A stretch of 39,307 nucleotides of DNA from a bacterium. Lineage in GTDB: Bacteria > Bacillota > Clostridia > Oscillospirales > Acutalibacteraceae. The translations under genes were made by a program, and so were the position numbers. The notes under the pieces are model-generated. The model was given only the letters and a program-made list of their open reading frames with translations. It was not told the origin of the DNA and did no database searches. The stretch's first letter is position 1. Each line of letters starts with the position of its first letter. The DNA is taken from NCBI GenBank assembly GCA_020624805.1, contig JAHKVW010000007.1:1-39307 (forward strand), given 5' to 3'. Below are positions 5,153 through 39,307 of the stretch, in pieces.

Positions 5153-5172
5153 TATATTTCACTCCTTCTTAG

Positions 5173-5340
5173 CCTTCCCCTTGAGGGGAAGGTGTCGCCG
5201 ACAACTCGTTGGCGGTGACGGATGAGGTGGAAACACTTCTGCCCCATACCATCAATCTATTATCGGAAAGGCTTTCACCTCATCCGACCAAATCGCCTGT
5301 TGAGGCGATTTGCACTCCTTCCCCTTTGAGGGAAAGGGAG
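5173..5340. repeat. K element, copy 1
   Basis: It begins CCTTCCCCTTGAGGGGAAGG, continues with GGTGTCGCC...GGCGGTGACGGATGAGGTGG, has an AT-richer centre, and ends with the inverted counterpart CCACCTCATCC-like sequence and a TTCCCCTTTGAGGGAAAGG hairpin. It fills nearly the whole hpt-ftsH gap. The first half is almost identical to the copy at 8684-8852. Confidence 0.85.
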
Positions 5341-8649: not shown

Positions 8650-8683
8650 AATCTTTTCCTTTGTCATTACAGCGAACGGAAAG

Positions 8684-8852
8684 CCTTCCCCTTGAGGGGA
8701 AGGTGTCGCCGGCAACTTGTTGGCGGTGACGGATGAGGTGGAAATGTTTCCTCCTCAACTCGTCAATCGATAAAGCAGAAAGGTTTCCACCTCATCCGAC
8801 CCTATCGACTCTCCGGGAGCCGATAAGCCCACCTTCCCCTCAAGGGGAAGGC
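8684..8852. repeat. K element, copy 2
   Basis: The left end CCTTCCCCTTGAGGGGAAGG and right end CCTTCCCCTCAAGGGGAAGG are both perfect hairpins and inverted copies of each other. The element fills the rplI-dnaB gap completely: it ends four bases before the rplI stop codon and starts 35 bases upstream of the dnaB start. Any terminator or promoter between these genes must lie inside the repeat. Confidence 0.87.
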
Positions 8853-13600: not shown

Positions 13601-13841
13601 GTAGGGACGAGCATTGCTCGTCCGCATGGCAGAAGCGTTTGATTTCTATCTCACGCTTTCGATACAAGAAACGCCCGTCATTCTGCGGATGACCAATGTG
13701 ATCTCCCCTATGGGGAGGTGTCGCAAAGCGACAGAGGGGTGCCGTCTCCGGCTGAGGAACATCCCTACGGCGGAATTGATTTGCCGTGCGGTGGGTGGGA
13801 TACGACGGATAGGTTTCGGGAGGGTCAAGGCCCTCCCCTAC
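13600..13841. repeat. REPIN-like R element with nested N
   Basis: It begins CGTAGGGACGAGCATTGCTC (hairpin with loop ATT) and ends GGGAGGGTCAAGGCCCTCCC followed by CTAC, so the termini are inverted GTAGGG and CCCTAC. The stretch after the left hairpin is shared with 15380-15573. A diverged N element sits inside at 13702-13757. The 90-residue open frame across it is made of repeat and is not a gene. Confidence 0.7.
13702..13757 (+). repeat. N element (diverged copy)
   Basis: CTCCCCTATGGGGAG, a GTCGC-AAA-GCGAC stem, then AGGGGTGCCGTCTCCGGCTGAGG. This follows the same order of parts as the other N copies read in the plus orientation. It lies within the R element at 13600-13841. Confidence 0.65.
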
Positions 13842-13864
13842 AATAACTGTTTCAATCTACGGAA

Positions 13865-13898
13865 ACTCCTAACTCCTCACTCCTAACTCCTCACTCTG
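13865..13898. repeat. H-type heptamer array
   Basis: Tandem 7-base units CTCCTAA, CTCCTCA, CTCCTAA, CTCCTCA just upstream of the rnhA promoter. On the other strand they read TTAGGAG/TGAGGAG, which fits the YTRRNRR consensus of the other heptamer arrays. Confidence 0.7.
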
Positions 13899-14443: not shown

Positions 14444-14627
14444 GCGGTTGAGATTGCCACGGCATGAATGCCTCGCAATGACAATTCGTATGCGGTGAGA
14501 TCGCCACGGCATGAATGCCTTGCAATGACAATTCGTATGCGTTGAGATCGTCACGGCATGAATGCCTCGCAATGACAGTTCGTATATGTTGAGATCGCCA
14601 CGGCATGAACAACACCTCGCTATAACA
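14444..14627. repeat. Tandem P repeats (3.5 units of 47-48 bases)
   Basis: Units start at 14444, 14492, 14539 and 14586. Each reads GTTGAGATCGCCACGGCATG, then AATGCC (a GGCATgaATGCC hairpin), TCGCAATGACA and ATTCGTAT. The fourth is truncated and altered (CATGAACAACACCTCGC). The array starts at the base after the rnhA stop codon. There are no unique spacers, so this is not a CRISPR array. Solo members of the same family lie at 19024-19076 and 36031-36080. Confidence 0.85.
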
Positions 14628-15379: not shown

Positions 15380-15573
15380 CGTAGGGGTCGACATTCATGA
15401 CGACCCGCACGGCAGAAACGTTACTCCCCTATCTCACGTTTTCGATATCGGAAACGTCCGTCATTCTGCGGATAGTCAATGACCATAGCGCAGCGTTACG
15501 GAAGCAGACATTTGCTTCGCGTTTAGGTGGTATTAATCGGATAGGTTTCGGGAGGAGCAAGCCCCTCCCCTAC
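15380..15573. repeat. REPIN-like R element
   Basis: Left hairpin CGTAGGGGTCGACATTCATG...ACCC, a middle part shared with 13600-13841, the recurrent motif ATTTGCTTCGCGTTT, then GATAGGTTTCGGGAGGAG and CCCCTCCCCTAC. The terminal 25 bases (15549-15573) are identical to units at 23109-23133 (inside the RAYT gene) and 28137-28161. Confidence 0.75.
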
Positions 15574-15623: not shown

Positions 15624-15649
15624 AGGGAGGGTCAAGACCCTCCCCTACA
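15624..15649. repeat. Single REP unit
   Basis: GGGAGGGTCAAGACCCTCCC followed by CTACA, eight bases downstream of the hydF stop codon. It is preceded by the recurrent leader ATTTGCTTCGTATTTGG. The hairpin could stabilise or end the hydF transcript (inference). Confidence 0.75.
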
Positions 15650-16860: not shown

Positions 16861-17126
16861 CCTTCCCCTCGGGGGGGAGGTGGGCAATTTGCCTTAAGCA
16901 AATTGGTCGGATGAGGGGCTGAGTTAGCCGAAAGCTCATCTTAACAAAGAGAGTGAGGCATTTCTGTTATCCTCGGTAAGCACACAGCCTCACCGAGTCC
17001 TGTATCTATAGGAAAGGCTTTCACCTCATCCGTCAACTGCGTTGACACCTTTTCCTCGCCGGAGACAGCTCCCCCACTGTCACTTCGTGACGTCTCCCCA
17101 ACGGGGAGCACCTCAAGGGGAAGGCT
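16861..17126. repeat. K element, copy 3, with nested N
   Basis: The left end CCTTCCCCTCGGGGGGGAGG is followed by GGTGGGCAATTTGCC...GGATGAGGGG; the centre contains CATCTTAACAAAGAG, shared with the copy at 26393-26590. The right hairpin is split by an N element at 17054-17112, leaving ACACCTTTT before it and TCAAGGGGAAGG after it. It fills the hydF-hydG gap. Confidence 0.82.
17054..17112 (-). repeat. N element (nested in K)
   Basis: CCTCGCCGGAGACAGCTCCC, a GTCAC-TTC-GTGAC stem-loop, then TCCCCAACGGGGA and GCACC. It interrupts the right terminal hairpin of K copy 3. Confidence 0.8.
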
Positions 17127-18610: not shown

Positions 18611-18756
18611 AATTAGGAATTAGGAATTAGGAATTGACGGCGGGACACCCGCACCCGTTTTATATACGAAACGGAAATGCTTAGTTCTACATATAGGAAT
18701 CAAAAACACGAAGTGTTTCCCTTAATTCCTCATTCCTAATTCCTAATTCCTCATTA
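18611..18756. repeat. H element (inverted heptamer arrays)
   Basis: Left array TTAGGAA x3 (18611-18635), followed by a GCGGGACACCCGC-type hairpin; right array 18723-18756 (CATTCCT/AATTCCT units, the inverse), preceded by an AACACGAAGTGTTT hairpin. It fills the whole gap between hydG and the small regulator gene, whose stop codon abuts the right array. Confidence 0.8.
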
Positions 18757-19677: not shown

Positions 19678-20811
19678 ATGAGAAGATCGCTGTCCGTACG
19701 GATCGCGATAAACAATTCTGTGAGGCAAAAGATGAACGACAATTCAAAACCGCGCATCTTTAAATTTGATAACGTCAAGCTGCTCGTCATGATCCTGGTC
19801 GTCGTCGGCAGCTTTGCGGAGGAGTTCGCCGATGAAAGCGATATGTTTCGCTCATGGTTCATCTTCGTCAACTCCTTTGCGGCGCCGCTCTACATCTTTT
19901 TGAACGGCCTGTTCCAAAAGAGGTTCCAAAAGGATTATCGACCGAATCTGCACAAGATCAGCTACTACCTGATCCTCGGATTCATTTTGAAAATCGCGAT
20001 CTACGCGCTGCGGCGATTCAACGGCGAGGAGATCGGGCTGGATCTGTTAGGCAGCGCCGGCATCGACTGGTACTTCTTTATCATCGTGATGTACACGGTG
20101 ACACTCTATCTGCTCAAGGACGTCCATCCCGGGATCGTGATCCCCGCGACGATCGTTCTGGGCGTTGCGGCGGGATTCTTCCCGTTGGGCGACAGCTTCT
20201 ATCTGATGCGCTACTTTGTATTTCTGCCCTTCTACGCGGCGGGCTACTATTTGACGCCCGCAAAGGTCAGGCGCTTTTCACATCAGACGAAGGTCAAGCT
20301 CGTCGGCGTCGCGTTTTTGGTGATCTACTTCGTTCTGTGTTTCAGAATGAGAGATACGATCTATCCCCTGCGTATGCTGTTCACCGGCAGAAACCCCTAC
20401 AACATCGTCCCCATCGAGGGCTGTACCTTCTATCACCGACTGCTGTGCTACGGCATTTCTGCGGTCATGATCATCGCGGTCATCGCCATCATCCCCAATC
20501 GCAAGGTACCGCTGCTCACGCATATGGGACGCAACACGCTGAGCGTACTCTTCTGGCATTATCCGATCGTGCTGCTGATGTGGCACTTCGGGGCGTTTGA
20601 TTTCCTGCTGACATTGGGCGATCCGCTGTGGAAATTCAGCGTATTGACCGCGGCTGTGCTCACGGCGCTGATCCTGTCCTTCGACGTCTTCAGCTGGCCG
20701 CTGAGAAAACTGCAAGCGCTGATCGACAAGATCCCGCTGATCCCCTGCTTTGTCATGGACAGCGTAATCCTCATCACAGCGGCAGTCGTAAACATCTGGT
20801 TCCCGATCTGA
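19678..20811 (+). CDS. Acyltransferase-3-like multi-pass membrane protein
   Basis: About 377 residues with roughly ten hydrophobic helices, resembling membrane acyltransferases (family 3, OafA/NodX-like) that O-acetylate cell-surface sugars. It carries the family opening pattern F-D-N-V-K-L-L-x6-V-V-V-G and a C-terminal half with THMGRNTLSVLFWHYPIVLL, similar to family members (GxxSFxIYLxHxP). The conserved histidine expected after the first-helix glycine (GH) is serine here (VVVGSFAEEF), so enzymatic activity is doubtful. The ATG at 19678 lies just downstream of the promoter; MNDNSKPRIF at 19732 is an alternative start. It is monocistronic, with a terminator at 20889-20916. The substrate is unknown. 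Confidence 0.75.
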   Translation: MRRSLSVRIAINNSVRQKMNDNSKPRIFKFDNVKLLVMILVVVGSFAEEFADESDMFRSWFIFVNSFAAPLYIFLNGLFQKRFQKDYRPNLHKISYYLILGFILKIAIYALRRFNGEEIGLDLLGSAGIDWYFFIIVMYTVTLYLLKDVHPGIVIPATIVLGVAAGFFPLGDSFYLMRYFVFLPFYAAGYYLTPAKVRRFSHQTKVKLVGVAFLVIYFVLCFRMRDTIYPLRMLFTGRNPYNIVPIEGCTFYHRLLCYGISAVMIIAVIAIIPNRKVPLLTHMGRNTLSVLFWHYPIVLLMWHFGAFDFLLTLGDPLWKFSVLTAAVLTALILSFDVFSWPLRKLQALIDKIPLIPCFVMDSVILITAAVVNIWFPI

Positions 20812-21413: not shown

Positions 21414-22094
21414 ATGAAACGATTCAAGAAAATCACGATCATTTTGTTAGCGATCCTGCCGACGATCTATTCCGCGATCGCCGTATTCTTCATCCTGCCC
21501 GATACGGTCGCGGCGCACTTCGGGATAGACGGCACACCCGACCGCTACGGTTCCAAATACGAAGCCTTCCTCTTCCCCGCCATCATCCTCGTCATCGCCG
21601 TATTATATTTCCTTTTCAGAAAAATCCAACAGAAATCATCCACGGATGAAAACGATCGTACCGCGCGGAATCTCGACATTCTGGACACGGTGATCATGAT
21701 CGTCATGGTGCTGTTCAACGCGCTTTGCGTCTTTTTCCTGACCATGATGAAGAACCCCGCCACAATGAAGAACAAGGAGAATATGATCTTCGTCATCATC
21801 TCCTGCGTCATGGGCGTATTGTTCATCCTGCTGGGCAACATCCTGCCCAAGACCAAGCCCAATTCCTTTATCGGTGTGCGCCTGAGCTGGAGCATGGATA
21901 GTGACGAGCACTGGTATATCACCAACCGTAACTGCGGTATCGCAATGGTGCTCGCGGGTATCTGCACCGTCATCGCCGGGCTGATCGTCCGCAACGGCAC
22001 CTATATCATCTACATGATCCTTTCATTGATCCTGTTTTTAACGGTTGCAACTATTTATTCTTATGTTATAATAAAGCGTGAGAAAAAGAAATAA
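21414..22094 (+). CDS. SdpI-family membrane protein (DUF1648 plus SdpI domain)
   Basis: A membrane protein related to SdpI, the immunity and signalling protein against the SdpC cannibalism toxin of Bacillus. The 226 residues show a first helix (8-28) with the DUF1648 motif LPDTVAAHFGIDGTPDRYGSK, helices near 46-66, 88-108 and 120-140, the SdpI hallmark LPKTKPNSFIGVRLSW...W after the fourth helix, and two more C-terminal helices. AAGGAGGT sits seven bases before the ATG at 21414; the open frame upstream to 21288 overlaps the repressor gene and the hairpins and is not used. It is probably transcribed with the repressor, subject to the tandem hairpins. Confidence 0.88.
   Translation: MKRFKKITIILLAILPTIYSAIAVFFILPDTVAAHFGIDGTPDRYGSKYEAFLFPAIILVIAVLYFLFRKIQQKSSTDENDRTARNLDILDTVIMIVMVLFNALCVFFLTMMKNPATMKNKENMIFVIISCVMGVLFILLGNILPKTKPNSFIGVRLSWSMDSDEHWYITNRNCGIAMVLAGICTVIAGLIVRNGTYIIYMILSLILFLTVATIYSYVIIKREKKK
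22045..22072 (+). promoter_or_regulatory. Internal promoter for the kinase-like gene
   Basis: TTGCAA (22045-22050), 16 bases, TATAAT (22067-22072), inside the 3' end of the sdpI-like gene and 36 bases before the next start codon. Confidence 0.65.
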
Positions 22095-22107
22095 CAGGAG
22101 TAACCTT

Positions 22108-22830
22108 ATGCATATCTATCGAATCGCAGAAATGAATATCGCCGTCAAGGCGCGTTATGAAGAGACCTACCGCTATATGGCGGACTTTTTGACCGACAGC
22201 GAGGAGTATGAGCTGTTGATCGAGCCGACCGACGAGATGATCCGCTATGAAGCCGAGCTGGGCGAAGAGATCCACGGCGATCCCGGCAGTCCGTATATCT
22301 GTGAGTCGGTCGCCATCCTGCGCGTGATCTGCGACTACATCATCGACAAAAGCGGGTTCTTCCTGCATTGCTCATGCCTGAAATACAAGGAGGAAGCGAT
22401 CATCTTCACCGCGCCCTCCGGCACCGGCAAAAGCACCCACGCCGCGCTGTGGCGCAGGCATTTCGGCGACGAGGTCACCATGATCAACGACGACAAGCCG
22501 CTGGTGCGCGAAAAGGACGGCAGGTTCATCATCTACGGTACGCCGTGGAACGGCAAGCACGGCATCGGTGAAAACACCTGTGCCCCCGTCAGGGCGATCG
22601 TGTTCCTCTCACAGGCGCCGGAAAATCACGCCGCGCCGATCAATCCGGTCGAGGCGATCACCCTGCTCCTGCAGCAGACCGTGCTCCCCTCCGATAAAGC
22701 GCACCTGTCAAAGCTACTCGATATGCTCGGCAGGATGGTCGAAACCATCCCCATGATCCGCCTGGGCTGCACCATCAGCGATGAAGCGGTGACAACGGTG
22801 TATCGGGAGATTTATGATGATCAACAATAA
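22108..22830 (+). CDS. HPr-kinase-like P-loop ATPase
   Basis: 240 residues with a P-loop APSGTGKST (102-110) followed by HAALWRRHFGDEVTMINDDKPLVRE. This arrangement (P-loop, then a ND(D/E)KP strand, then GTPWNGKHG) is shared with the C-terminal domain of HPr kinase/phosphorylase and with the small HprK-like proteins found with PqqD or lasso-peptide genes. The N-terminal 90 residues are not recognised. AGGAG seven bases before the ATG at 22108 supports the start. No PqqD, HPr or peptide precursor was seen nearby, so the substrate is unknown. It overlaps the RAYT gene that follows by 14 bases. Confidence 0.75.
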   Translation: MHIYRIAEMNIAVKARYEETYRYMADFLTDSEEYELLIEPTDEMIRYEAELGEEIHGDPGSPYICESVAILRVICDYIIDKSGFFLHCSCLKYKEEAIIFTAPSGTGKSTHAALWRRHFGDEVTMINDDKPLVREKDGRFIIYGTPWNGKHGIGENTCAPVRAIVFLSQAPENHAAPINPVEAITLLLQQTVLPSDKAHLSKLLDMLGRMVETIPMIRLGCTISDEAVTTVYREIYDDQQ

Positions 22831-23323
22831 AGAGCAATTCCCCAAAAGGAAGCCGACACACATGAAGTCCTTTGATTACAGCGAGAATCACAGATACTTC
22901 ATCACCATATGCTCTGACGGCAAAAGGAAGATGGTTTCCGATATTTCTGTAGGGGAGGGGCTCGCTCCTCCCGTCATCCATCTTTCCGCAATCGGGAAGA
23001 TTATTGAGGAACAGCTTCTTGCCTTATCAACAAGATACCCCCAGATCGAAATTGAGAATCACGTTATCATGCCCAATCATTTACATATGATTCTTCGTTT
23101 AGAGAATACGGGAGGAGCAAGCCCCTCCCCTACCACACACGACATCATCTGCACATTGAAATCTTTGGTAACACGTTCCTGCAGACAAATTGGTTATCGG
23201 GGAAACATATGGCAACGCAGCTACTATGAACATATCATCCGTAATGAGGACGATTATAAAAACACTTGGATCTACATCGACAACAATCCTGCCCGATGGT
23301 CTGAGGACGAATACTACCAATAA
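22817..23323 (+). CDS. REP-associated tyrosine transposase (RAYT, Y1_Tnp family)
   Basis: A single-strand HUH/Y1 nuclease related to TnpA of IS200/IS605, of the type that excises and spreads REP hairpins. Numbering from the upstream in-frame ATG at 22814, features are FDYSENHRYFITIC (20-33), the HUH motif in VIMPNHLHMIL (H89, H91), FKS-like LKSLVTR (115-121), IWQRSYYEHIIRNE with the catalytic tyrosine at 137 or 138, and NNPARW near the end. The ATG at 22817 is chosen because GGAG is seven bases upstream. Two full REP hairpins of the R family lie in frame inside the gene, at 22949-22973 (encoding VGEGLAPP) and 23109-23133 (encoding GGASPSPT), inverted to each other on either side of the HUH motif. 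No separate flanking REPs are present. All catalytic residues are intact. Confidence 0.88.
   Translation: MINNKEQFPKRKPTHMKSFDYSENHRYFITICSDGKRKMVSDISVGEGLAPPVIHLSAIGKIIEEQLLALSTRYPQIEIENHVIMPNHLHMILRLENTGGASPSPTTHDIICTLKSLVTRSCRQIGYRGNIWQRSYYEHIIRNEDDYKNTWIYIDNNPARWSEDEYYQ
22949..22973 (+). repeat. REP unit inside the RAYT coding sequence (left)
   Basis: Begins GTAGGGGAGGGG and ends CTCCTCCCG with a CTCG loop. It reads in frame as VGEGLAPP. It is the inverse, with one base changed, of the unit at 23109-23133. Confidence 0.85.
23109..23133 (-). repeat. REP unit inside the RAYT coding sequence (right)
   Basis: Begins CGGGAGGAGCAAG and ends CCCCTCCCCTAC. It is identical over 25 bases to 15549-15573 and 28137-28161. 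It reads in frame as GGASPSPT, between the HUH motif and the catalytic tyrosine. Confidence 0.87.
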
Positions 23324-26307: not shown

Positions 26308-26676
26308 AAACTTAAGACTTAAAAATGAATAATAAAGGGGCGCGTGCGCCTTTATCTATACCACTGTAACGTGTAGCAGAATCAAAAAAGCCTTCCCCTC
26401 GGGGGAAGGTGGCTCGGCGTAAGTCGAGTCGGATGAGGGGCTTACTTATCCGAAAGATCATCTTAACAAAGAGCGTGAGACATTTCCTCGATCCTCGGGA
26501 CACATTCAGTCATACCGAGATCGACATTAACAGGAAAGGGTGCCCCCTCATCCGTCACCTTTGGTGACACCTTCCCCCCGAGGGGAAGGCTTTTCCAACT
26601 GAATACTATCATTGATCGAGCAAAGCGAGAAACTATCATTATTCATTCTTCAATTTTCAGTCTTCAGTCTTAAGTC
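26296..26676. repeat. H element enclosing a complete K element
   Basis: The left array 26296-26336 reads ACTGAAA, ACTGAAA, ACTTAAG, ACTTAAA, AATGAAT and is followed by a GGCGCG-TGCGCC hairpin. The right array 26639-26676 is the inverse (TTCAATTTTCAGTCTTCAGTC). Between them lies K copy 4. This structure fills the GH31-pduL gap. Confidence 0.78.
26393..26590. repeat. K element, copy 4
   Basis: The left hairpin CCTTCCCCTCGGGGGAAGG and the right hairpin CCTTCCCCCCGAGGGGAAGG; inside, GGATGAGGGG...CCCCTCATCC in inverted orientation and a centre with CATCTTAACAAAGAG. The centre matches copy 3 directly and copy 5 in reverse. Confidence 0.85.
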
Positions 26677-28025: not shown

Positions 28026-28161
28026 GTAGGGGAGCGGCTTGCTGCTCCCGAAAACATTTCCGTCTATTCCTATTCCACCGCGAAGCAAATGCAACTTCTC
28101 CTTGACTTGTGTATTCTATTATCAAACTATCTACCGCGGGAGGAGCAAGCCCCTCCCCTAC
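28026..28161. repeat. REPIN (two inverted REP units)
   Basis: The left unit starts GTAGGGGAGCGG and ends GCTGCTCCCG (28026-28050). The right unit (28137-28161) is the inverse and is identical to the REP in the RAYT gene. Between them is the inverse of the recurrent ATTTGCTTCGCG leader motif. This is a textbook REPIN layout: two REPs head to head with a short spacer. Confidence 0.83.
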
Positions 28162-28211
28162 AGCAAACGTTACGGTGTCAACTATCAATGGGTGTGGACA
28201 AAGTCCACCAT

Positions 28212-28244
28212 CAATTCCTCATTCCTAATTCCTAATTCCTCATT
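28212..28244. repeat. H-type heptamer array
   Basis: CAATTCCTCATTCCTAATTC and one further pair of units, preceded by a GTGGAC-AAA-GTCCAC hairpin. It abuts the terminator of the small unknown gene. Confidence 0.72.
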
Positions 28245-28273
28245 AAAAAAGCTGACCTTTGCGGTCAGCTTTT
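28245..28273 (-). terminator. Terminator of the ireB-downstream gene
   Basis: GCTGACC-GCAAA-GGTCAGC followed by TTTTTT on the minus strand. TTTT on the other side makes it usable for readthrough from the plus strand. Confidence 0.85.
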
Positions 28274-37894: not shown

Positions 37895-37920
37895 CGGGAG
37901 GGTCGAGACCCTCCCCTACA
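37895..37920. repeat. Single REP unit
   Basis: CGGGAGGGTCGAGACCCTCC then CCTACA, preceded by the leader motif ATTTGCTTCGCATTTG and TATCGGATAGGTTT found before other R units. Confidence 0.78.
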
Positions 37921-37933
37921 AATGATATTGCCC

Positions 37934-37976
37934 TCAACTCCACTCCTAATTCCTAATTCCTAATTCCTCACTCCTC
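37934..37976. repeat. H-type heptamer array
   Basis: CACTCCTAATTCCTAATTCC and further TAATTCC and CACTCC units, six in all, each seven bases. Confidence 0.75.
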
Positions 37977-38941: not shown

Positions 38942-39195
38942 CCTTCCCCTCGGGGTACCCCCGTTGGGGGAATGTCCGAAGGACAAGGGGGGAGCCGCTT
39001 CCGGCGAGGAGAAGGTGGGTCGGCGTATGCCGAGTCGGATGAGGGGATAACCTTTCCTGTTGATTACGGACTCGGTGGGACTGTGTGTTTACCGTGAATC
39101 AAGGAAATGTATTACACTCTTTGTTAAATCAATCTTTCGGATAAGTCAGCCCCTCATCCGTCACCTTTGGTGACACCTTCCCCCCGAGGGGAAGG
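38942..39195. repeat. K element, copy 5, with nested N
   Basis: The left hairpin CCTTCCCCTCGGGG is interrupted by N (38954-39009) before AGAAGGTGG; the right end is CACCTTCCCCCCGAGGGGAA. The centre (CTCTTTGTTAAATC...CTTTCGGATAAG) is the reverse complement of the centre in copy 4, so the core is inverted relative to the ends. Confidence 0.8.
38954..39009 (+). repeat. N element (nested in K)
   Basis: GGTACCCCCGTTGGGGG, GTCC-GAA-GGAC, AAGGGGGGAGCCGCTTCCGG then CGAGG, inserted in the left terminal hairpin of K copy 5. Confidence 0.82.
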
Positions 39196-39307
39196 CATTT
39201 TTATTAAGAAACGCGAAGTGTTTCCCACTATGATTCATTTTTCAATCTTCAATTTTCAATAACATATGCCCTTCCCCTGCAAATGTTTCCGATCGATCCG
39301 CCATGGA

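Follow-up and report, generated by a model that had tools for sequence, protein, structure and literature searches.

A RAYT transposase gene (TnpAREP type) from a 2.5-Mb draft genome of the family Acutalibacteraceae carries, inside its own reading frame and on either side of the HUH motif, two inverted copies of the GTAG-tagged REP hairpin that is dispersed through the same genome, and GTAG hairpins were found at the same two places in two samples of related genes. This in-frame pair probably acts as a cognate REPIN that the enzyme has within its own gene: a linked seed or master pair, which would remain matched to the enzyme and be inherited with it. The window, that is, the whole stretch of DNA analysed here, is contig C60 (39,307 bp) of this genome, which is labelled G000, and its features are collected in Table 1.

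Table 1. Coordinates of the RAYT gene, its in-frame REPs and the dispersed REPs of the window
Feature	Position	Strand	Remarks
RAYT / TnpAREP-type HUH-Tyr transposase ORF, 169 aa	22814-23323	+	profile, fold and sequence evidence
In-frame REP 1, reads GTAGGGGAGGGGCTCGCTCCTCCCG, encodes VGEGLAPP (residues 46-53)	22949-22973	+	GTAG end outward (left)
In-frame REP 2, encodes GGASPSPT (residues 100-107)	23109-23133	-	GTAG on minus strand (right end)
REP pair in REPIN geometry, brackets the HUH codons, 185 bp	22949-23133		GTAG outward at both ends
HUH motif codons, N88-H89-L90-H91	23075-23086	+	
Predicted catalytic Tyr codon, Y154 in YIDNNP	23273-23275	+	
Dispersed REP, in-gene family	13818-13841	-	2 mismatches to search pattern
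Dispersed REP	15549-15573	-	identical to REP 2
Dispersed REP, in-gene family	15625-15648	-	2 mismatches to search pattern
Dispersed REP	28026-28049	+	both bases of one stem pair changed
Dispersed REP	28137-28161	-	identical to REP 2
Dispersed REP, in-gene family	37896-37919	-	2 mismatches to search pattern

Judged by sequence and structural model, the ORF is a RAYT (TnpAREP) with an HUH-Tyr (Y1) core. It matched NF047646 with 68.7 bits (E 4.8e-19), under the 80-bit cut-off, and PF01797 with 21.5 bits, under the cut-off of 23. A profile match to E. coli TnpAREP with its REP hairpin was obtained in the PDB (4er8, E 2.4e-10), and the same entry was the best fold match of the AlphaFold2 model (E 2.2e-7, TM 0.60 by query length; mean pLDDT 85.8, pTM 0.77). 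H89 and H91 were invariant in 62 aligned sequences, and Y154 was conserved in at least 90% of them. The start of the gene overlaps the 3′-end of the upstream ORF 22078-22830, an arrangement that may allow translational coupling; this ORF shows a weak likeness to the SynChlorMet protein ScmC (TIGR04249, 31.8 bits against a cut-off of 125).

The first-pass annotation of the window had described two complete, inverted 25-base REP hairpins within the RAYT gene, 185 bp end to end, and the sequence agrees: REP 2 is the REP 1 unit on the opposite strand with one loop base different. Repeat comparison and translation also bore out that REP 2 is identical to two other copies in the window, and that both units are read in frame, as VGEGLAPP and GGASPSPT, on either side of the HUH motif, which lies outside the REPs, as does the predicted Tyr154. 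In the AlphaFold2 model, VGEGLAPP is a predicted loop between strands 42-45 and 54-57, and GGASPSPT is one between strand 89-96 and helix 108-125; neither loop holds a catalytic residue. This supports the description of the gene as one that contains a REP pair of its own, arranged like a REPIN, with both units in predicted loops that spare the catalytic residues; we predict that the octapeptides are tolerated surface loops and not the target of selection. A search with the query protein gave 461 relatives, nearly all of which, among the 120 listed, had these or similar peptides; since such a search shares words with the REP peptides, it was used for the structure, the PDB-profile alignment and as a lead, and not for the counts given below.

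A GTAG-tagged REP family is dispersed in this genome. The in-gene REP pattern has 8 matches in the window (at most 3 mismatches), against 0.00 expected from shuffles. The whole genome holds 68 close matches (at most 1 mismatch) of the window REP, 2 in the RAYT gene and 66 outside it, and 112 copies of a looser pattern (at most 1 mismatch), against 0 for the reversed control. When 100 of these 112 places were considered, neighbouring REPs at most 400 bp apart formed 11 GTAG-outward pairs, the in-gene pair included, 2 opposite pairs and 9 tandem pairs, and 10 of the 11 GTAG-outward pairs were 126-190 bp long, a range that takes in the 185 bp of the in-gene pair. With inverted REPs, GTAG outward and typical spacing, the in-gene pair is arranged as a REPIN. 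The nearest external REPs (at most 2 mismatches to the in-gene ones) lie 7231 bp upstream and 4717 bp downstream of the RAYT gene, so that the window gene lacks the close flanking REPs of a REPtron.

Other repeats were noted along the way. A 136-bp inverted REP pair lies at 28026-28161, and the stem pair changed on both sides belongs to its left copy. Elsewhere in G000, the MutL gene of contig C31 (locus L032) contains an in-frame REP at 20484-20507, read as VGEGLGPPA (residues 461-469) and located between the N- and C-terminal Pfam domains, in agreement with published REPs in genes of DNA repair (PMC3733652). Motifs like GCCTTCCCC..GGGGAAGG and like CCTCATCCG mark one or more further dispersed repeats (5171-5260, 8682-8771, 16906-17058, 26428-26594 and 39008-39200) with no obvious relation to REPs. 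A short array of tandem copies, 91-93% alike and recurring every 47 bp (GAGATCGCCACGGCATGAATGCC...), occupies 14447-14609, and pyrimidine-rich dispersed repeats of the CCTAATTCCTCATTC type are found at 13859-13896, 18719-18756, 28208-28245 and 37936-37973, three of the four at most 50 bp from a REP.

We then looked for the same in-frame placement in relatives, using two samples drawn without use of the hairpins and site windows fixed for counting. For set A, 150 genomes from the GTDB family of G000 were searched with an HMM, which gave matches in 72 of them; 60 RAYT-like regions were hand-picked from the listed matches by HMM alignment span, and three from G000 itself were added. These regions yielded 50 HUH ORFs from 32 genomes, while 13 of the 63 were dropped without an ORF passing the motif filter, being other HUH classes or broken or split genes. 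Two other motif filters left 43 and 39 ORFs; the set of 39, with both hairpins in 24, led to the same conclusion. For set B, a search with REP-excised proteins was used, and 80 of 427 confirmed named loci gave 84 ORFs, with two loci having no ORF and five having more than one. L076 and L175 are near-identical across the sets, and L156 was counted twice in set B as identical ORFs.

GTAG hairpins were present at site 1, before the HUH motif, in 36/50 ORFs of set A and 55/84 of set B, at site 2, after it, in 43/50 and 60/84, and at both sites in 32/50 and 48/84, which makes 80 ORFs (78 distinct) with hairpins on either side of HUH. In the flipped orientation, sites 1 and 2 gave 0 and 0 in set A and 0 and 3 in set B, and control tetramers (seven in A) gave 0-2 in set A and 0-5 in set B. 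The reading phase was uniform in 35/36 and 39/43 hairpins of set A and in 53/55 and 47/60 of set B (sites 1 and 2, respectively). Site 1 mostly starts 120-132 nt before HUH, and site 2 mostly ends 56-71 nt after it. When stop-to-stop frames were scanned without fixed site windows, 79 of 86 GTAG hairpins (A) and 116 of 144 (B) still fell into the two site windows in the one orientation, and among those outside, 5/7 (A) and 21/28 (B) lay over 250 nt upstream of HUH, where they probably precede the start codon. The two other RAYT genes of G000, on contigs C107 and C45, have different GTAG hairpins at both sites, those of the C45 gene differing from each other by 5 edits. Over both sets there were 119 distinct in-gene hairpins and 64 and 77 distinct peptides at sites 1 and 2; no relative was found to make the two peptides of the window gene from unrelated DNA, as the relatives' peptides differ and are made by their own hairpins.

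ORFs lacking one or both hairpins were common (18/50 in set A, and 36/84 in set B, 17 of which lacked both), indicating that the pair is dispensable or easily lost. Such ORFs bear on the suggestion that the two peptides are precise insertions, with a mixed outcome. Loops with a REP are usually 22-25 aa long at site 1 and 21-23 aa at site 2, and ORFs with no detected hairpin include a short class of 13-17 aa in 8/31 (site 1) and 15-17 aa in 10/28 (site 2); the medians, however, were 23 vs 23 aa at site 1 and 21.5 vs 23 aa at site 2 for loops without and with a detected REP, so that length separates the two groups only in part, all lengths being taken from crude motif anchors. Some of the long loops without a detected hairpin look like eroded REPs, and others do not. 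Among 34 listed RAYT ORFs of Bacteroidota and UBP15, hand-picked and hence no representative sample, with several being the same gene in overlapping loci, no matched pair was seen at both places, and the arrangement therefore appears centred on Clostridia in the samples taken. The GTAG hairpins of UBP15 RAYT genes lie mostly after HUH, some as unlike pairs; for example, the RAYT ORFs of L223 and L225 (G151, UBP15) have two unlike GTAG hairpins, both after HUH.

The two hairpins of one gene vary in concert. Their mean edit distance within a gene was 2.06 in set A (n=32) and 1.19 in set B (n=48), compared with 8.45 between genomes (A) and 8.44 between ORFs (B), and 0 of 20,000 permutations in each set reached the observed within-gene mean, in tests that ignore shared ancestry. 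Hairpins 0-2 edits apart were found within 23/32 (A) and 40/48 (B) genes, compared with 35/964 and 71/2256 comparisons between them. Stem pairs were counted in genes whose hairpins are of equal length (23, 24 or 26 nt), identical pairs once. In the longest class, stem position 7, which is often unpaired (G.A or A.G), was occupied alike at both sites in all 40 distinct hairpin pairs. In 68 distinct pairs, 19 of 408 stem cells differed between the sites; 16 of these 19 were changed on both sides and are still Watson-Crick, and 3 were one-sided, a share of compensated differences that is somewhat inflated by a detector favouring paired stems. This compensation favours selection at the level of the hairpin. 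Non-Watson-Crick pairs were counted with symmetric scoring, since one earlier detector favoured G.T. On the GTAG strand, site 2 had G.T 11 times (C.A in the mRNA), A.C 0 times and T.C twice, and site 1 had G.T 5, A.C 3 and G.A 3 times; several of the wobble cases share ancestry, and the polarity is therefore suggestive only. Taken together, compensation and wobble favour, at the sequence level, a constraint on the GTAG-strand hairpin, as ssDNA, over one on the peptide or the mRNA, with a wobble count that is small and partly due to shared descent. REP divergence tracks protein divergence weakly but clearly (Mantel r 0.26, 0/5000, n=43).

The in-gene hairpins also correspond to the dispersed REPs of their genomes. 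We scanned 30 genomes for six of the in-gene types (at most 1 mismatch). The window type had 68 copies in G000, 6 in G070, 3 in G071, which has the same in-gene REP, and 0 in the other 27 of the 30 genomes, and the type of a G118 gene had 12 copies in G118 and none in the remaining 29. Pattern E was found in G084 (34 copies), G062 (13), G081 and G118 (5 each), G148 (3), G102 (2) and G096 (1); pattern B in G015 (39), G066 (11), G034 (10) and six others (1-6); and pattern C in G013 (10), G070 (8), G118 (4), G133 (2), G066 (1) and G148 (1). The type of the C107 gene occurred in 12 of the 30 genomes, most often in G000, where 2 of its 21 copies are within the C107 RAYT. G000 holds two enzymes (window and C107) and two families, each with an in-gene pair. 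For 12 of the 14 genes scanned, the in-gene type was also dispersed outside RAYT genes in the same genome, with 66 and 19 outside copies in G000, 38 in G015, 32 in G084, 10 and 3 in G118, 7 in G066, 4 in G081, 2 in G064, and 1 each in G071, G126 and G133. The remaining two, in G102 (both matches) and G148 (its single match), had their type only inside the RAYT gene (0 outside copies at no more than 1 mismatch in draft genomes). In each of the genes of G071, G064 and G126, the two hairpins are identical. Near the RAYT genes, matches to the in-gene REPs had a density of 1.78 per 100 kb in the own genome and 0.17 in other genomes (at most 2 mismatches), a tenfold difference. The cognate match is not exclusive: the examined RAYTs of G070 and G013 carry REPs other than pattern C, and the examined RAYT of G062 bears another type than pattern E.

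Close flanking by REPs, as in a REPtron, was the case for a minority of genes. In a count of REP-bearing genes with 300 bp on each side, the start codon placed by rule and the near-duplicates L175 and L082 left out, 28/111 had a same-family REP (at most 2 mismatches) within 300 bp outside the gene, and 5/111 had one on both sides; with at most 4 mismatches, these numbers were 31/111 and 6/111. Counting from stop-to-stop frames, which misses in-frame REPs ahead of the start codon, gave 23/111 and 4/111. REPtron-style flanking was accordingly rejected as a general rule.

It had also been proposed that the gene, or its inner part, could move as a REPIN, and for this we found no support in G000: scoring of 40 of the 124 first-look candidates in the genome turned up no second copy of the inter-REP stretch, and the stretch is without the N-terminal strand and the Tyr helix. 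An HMM search of the genome, with all 9 candidates scored, found only three full RAYT genes. In G066, two related RAYT copies have 469 bp in common, the ends of which are not at REPs. The in-gene REPIN was not seen to move or multiply as a unit with its spacer. Plasmid and phage records contained 5 and 1 relatives, respectively, all below 60% identity and with no direct sign of transfer; the one in a 4.8-kb record from human faeces named Bacteriophage sp. (MT839559.1, 124-591) is a RAYT with 41% identity.

Given these observations, other explanations for the in-gene pair have to be considered. The main rival, which we regard as unlikely though deserving serious weight, is that the REPs are passengers, which entered two permissive loops in one or several insertion events and are overwritten again and again by recombination with dispersed copies, such that gene conversion keeps the pair alike while neither enzyme nor family gains anything from it. 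In-frame REPs do occur in other genes, such as the MutL gene described above, intragenic REPs have been published (PMC3733652), and missing and apparently eroded sites are common. However, independent insertions should vary in position, orientation and phase, whereas in the 80 ORFs the hairpins sit at two narrow places, all in one orientation and most of them in a single phase. Moreover, the genes of G102 and G148 have no outside copies of the scanned type to be converted by, at no more than 1 mismatch in draft genomes, and the hairpins in the genes of G071, G064 and G126 are identical despite just 1, 2 and 1 outside copies. The passenger view is disfavoured by the narrow placement, the uniform orientation, the largely uniform phase and the genomes in which no outside copies were found.

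The pair might instead act in the transcript, the inverted REPs pairing with each other or forming local hairpins and thereby tuning the translation or stability of the RAYT mRNA. The first-pass annotation had raised such regulation, and a predicted pairing of the two REPs with each other, some 25 bp long and spanning the HUH region, would fit it (RNA fold z -5.3, ssDNA fold z -6.7 vs shuffles), but we consider it improbable. Selection for long-range pairing would keep the two sites complementary, whereas the 16 compensated differences among the 19 keep the local hairpin and break the long-range match, and the exceptions at site 2, G.T and never A.C on the GTAG strand, point, if only suggestively, to that strand and not to the mRNA. 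Selection on the peptides, with loops of the form VG....P serving the protein and the palindromic DNA as a by-product, appears very improbable. The VG that opens site 1 and the PT that closes site 2 are indeed widely common, yet the palindrome is kept while the peptides vary as widely as counted above, and the 17 ORFs of set B with neither hairpin keep the HUH motif, which was itself a filter condition. The two sites also match as DNA in opposite orientation and so encode unrelated peptides, which counts against selection at the peptide level.

REPINs were reportedly described by Bertels and Rainey in 2011. They consist of two inverted REPs with GTAG outward (PMC6006769), and the in-gene pair shares this arrangement, unlike a REPIN in that its spacer is transposase coding sequence with no second copy found in the genome. 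With the REPtron and E. coli TnpAREP (4er8), the window gene shares the HUH-Tyr fold and a dispersed family of GTAG-tagged hairpins, and it differs from the REPtron in that its REPs are inside the ORF and not close flanks. GTAG REPs and intragenic REPs have been described (PMC3733652). Like these and the Rickettsia palindromic elements, the REPs of the window gene are palindromic repeats read in frame within a protein; those elements occur in many unrelated genes at mostly differing sites (PMC3733652), whereas here it is a likely cognate transposase that has them, at two narrow places.

The RAYT with REPs inside is not the first of its kind. REPs can insert in tnpAREP genes of subclass 2.4 with the frame kept, generally between HUH and Tyr, and some subclass 2.8 genes carry an in-gene REP (Quentin et al. 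2018, PMC6006769); the bare observation had thus been made before. Subclass 2.4, which is said to take in 100 Bertels group 4 RAYTs (PMC6006769), resembles the window gene in its in-frame REP at a peripheral position between HUH and Tyr, that of REP 2, and in its signatures NH[IFV]H, WQ and YIxNNP (PMC6006769), which read NHLH (L not being among the listed letters), WQ and YIDNNP here. The distance from HUH to Tyr is about 65 aa, compared with a subclass median of 88 aa in a region that is highly variable there (PMC6006769). The subclass is also marked by 8 inserted aa where helix B ends (PMC6006769). Unlike the accessible account of subclass 2.4 (PMC6006769), the window gene has a second in-ORF place before HUH, and the genes described here have an inverted, concerted pair that matches dispersed REPs, mostly without close flanking REPs. 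In a literature search by title and start of abstract, with most subscription papers outside its scope, none of the papers listed dealt with paired, concerted in-ORF REPs. What the present analysis adds to Quentin et al. 2018 is the matched inverted pair at two places, the concert within the gene, the dispersed cognates and the few close flanks.

If the pair is the enzyme's own cognate REPIN, as we think probable, the enzyme would, by analogy with TnpAREP of E. coli and Stenotrophomonas, bind the in-gene hairpin as ssDNA and nick it near the GTAG foot; cleavage in vitro near REPs and a role of GTAG have been described (PMC8266576). Copies made from the in-gene pair, or exchanged with it, would then keep the gene and the dispersed family in step. 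A transfer of REPINs without the RAYT gene has been argued against (PMC8049555). As no flanking REP would be needed, an ORF transferred by itself would deliver the enzyme along with its substrate, and a new REP family could start from it. Whether the in-ORF REPIN is a heritable master copy of its REP family, co-evolving with the specificity of the enzyme, such that a single small ORF could set up a complete REP-RAYT system after its transfer to another genome, is a more tentative step, which we judge possible but somewhat short of an even chance.

These results touch on the origin of new REP families and on what keeps an existing family and its transposase matched. A gene with a cognate REP pair in its own frame would remove an obstacle in this respect. 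In addition, the 119 distinct in-gene hairpins are a natural series of enzymes and REPs for reading the recognition code, and they present a case of protein-coding sequence in which a DNA hairpin is preserved at two sites simultaneously.
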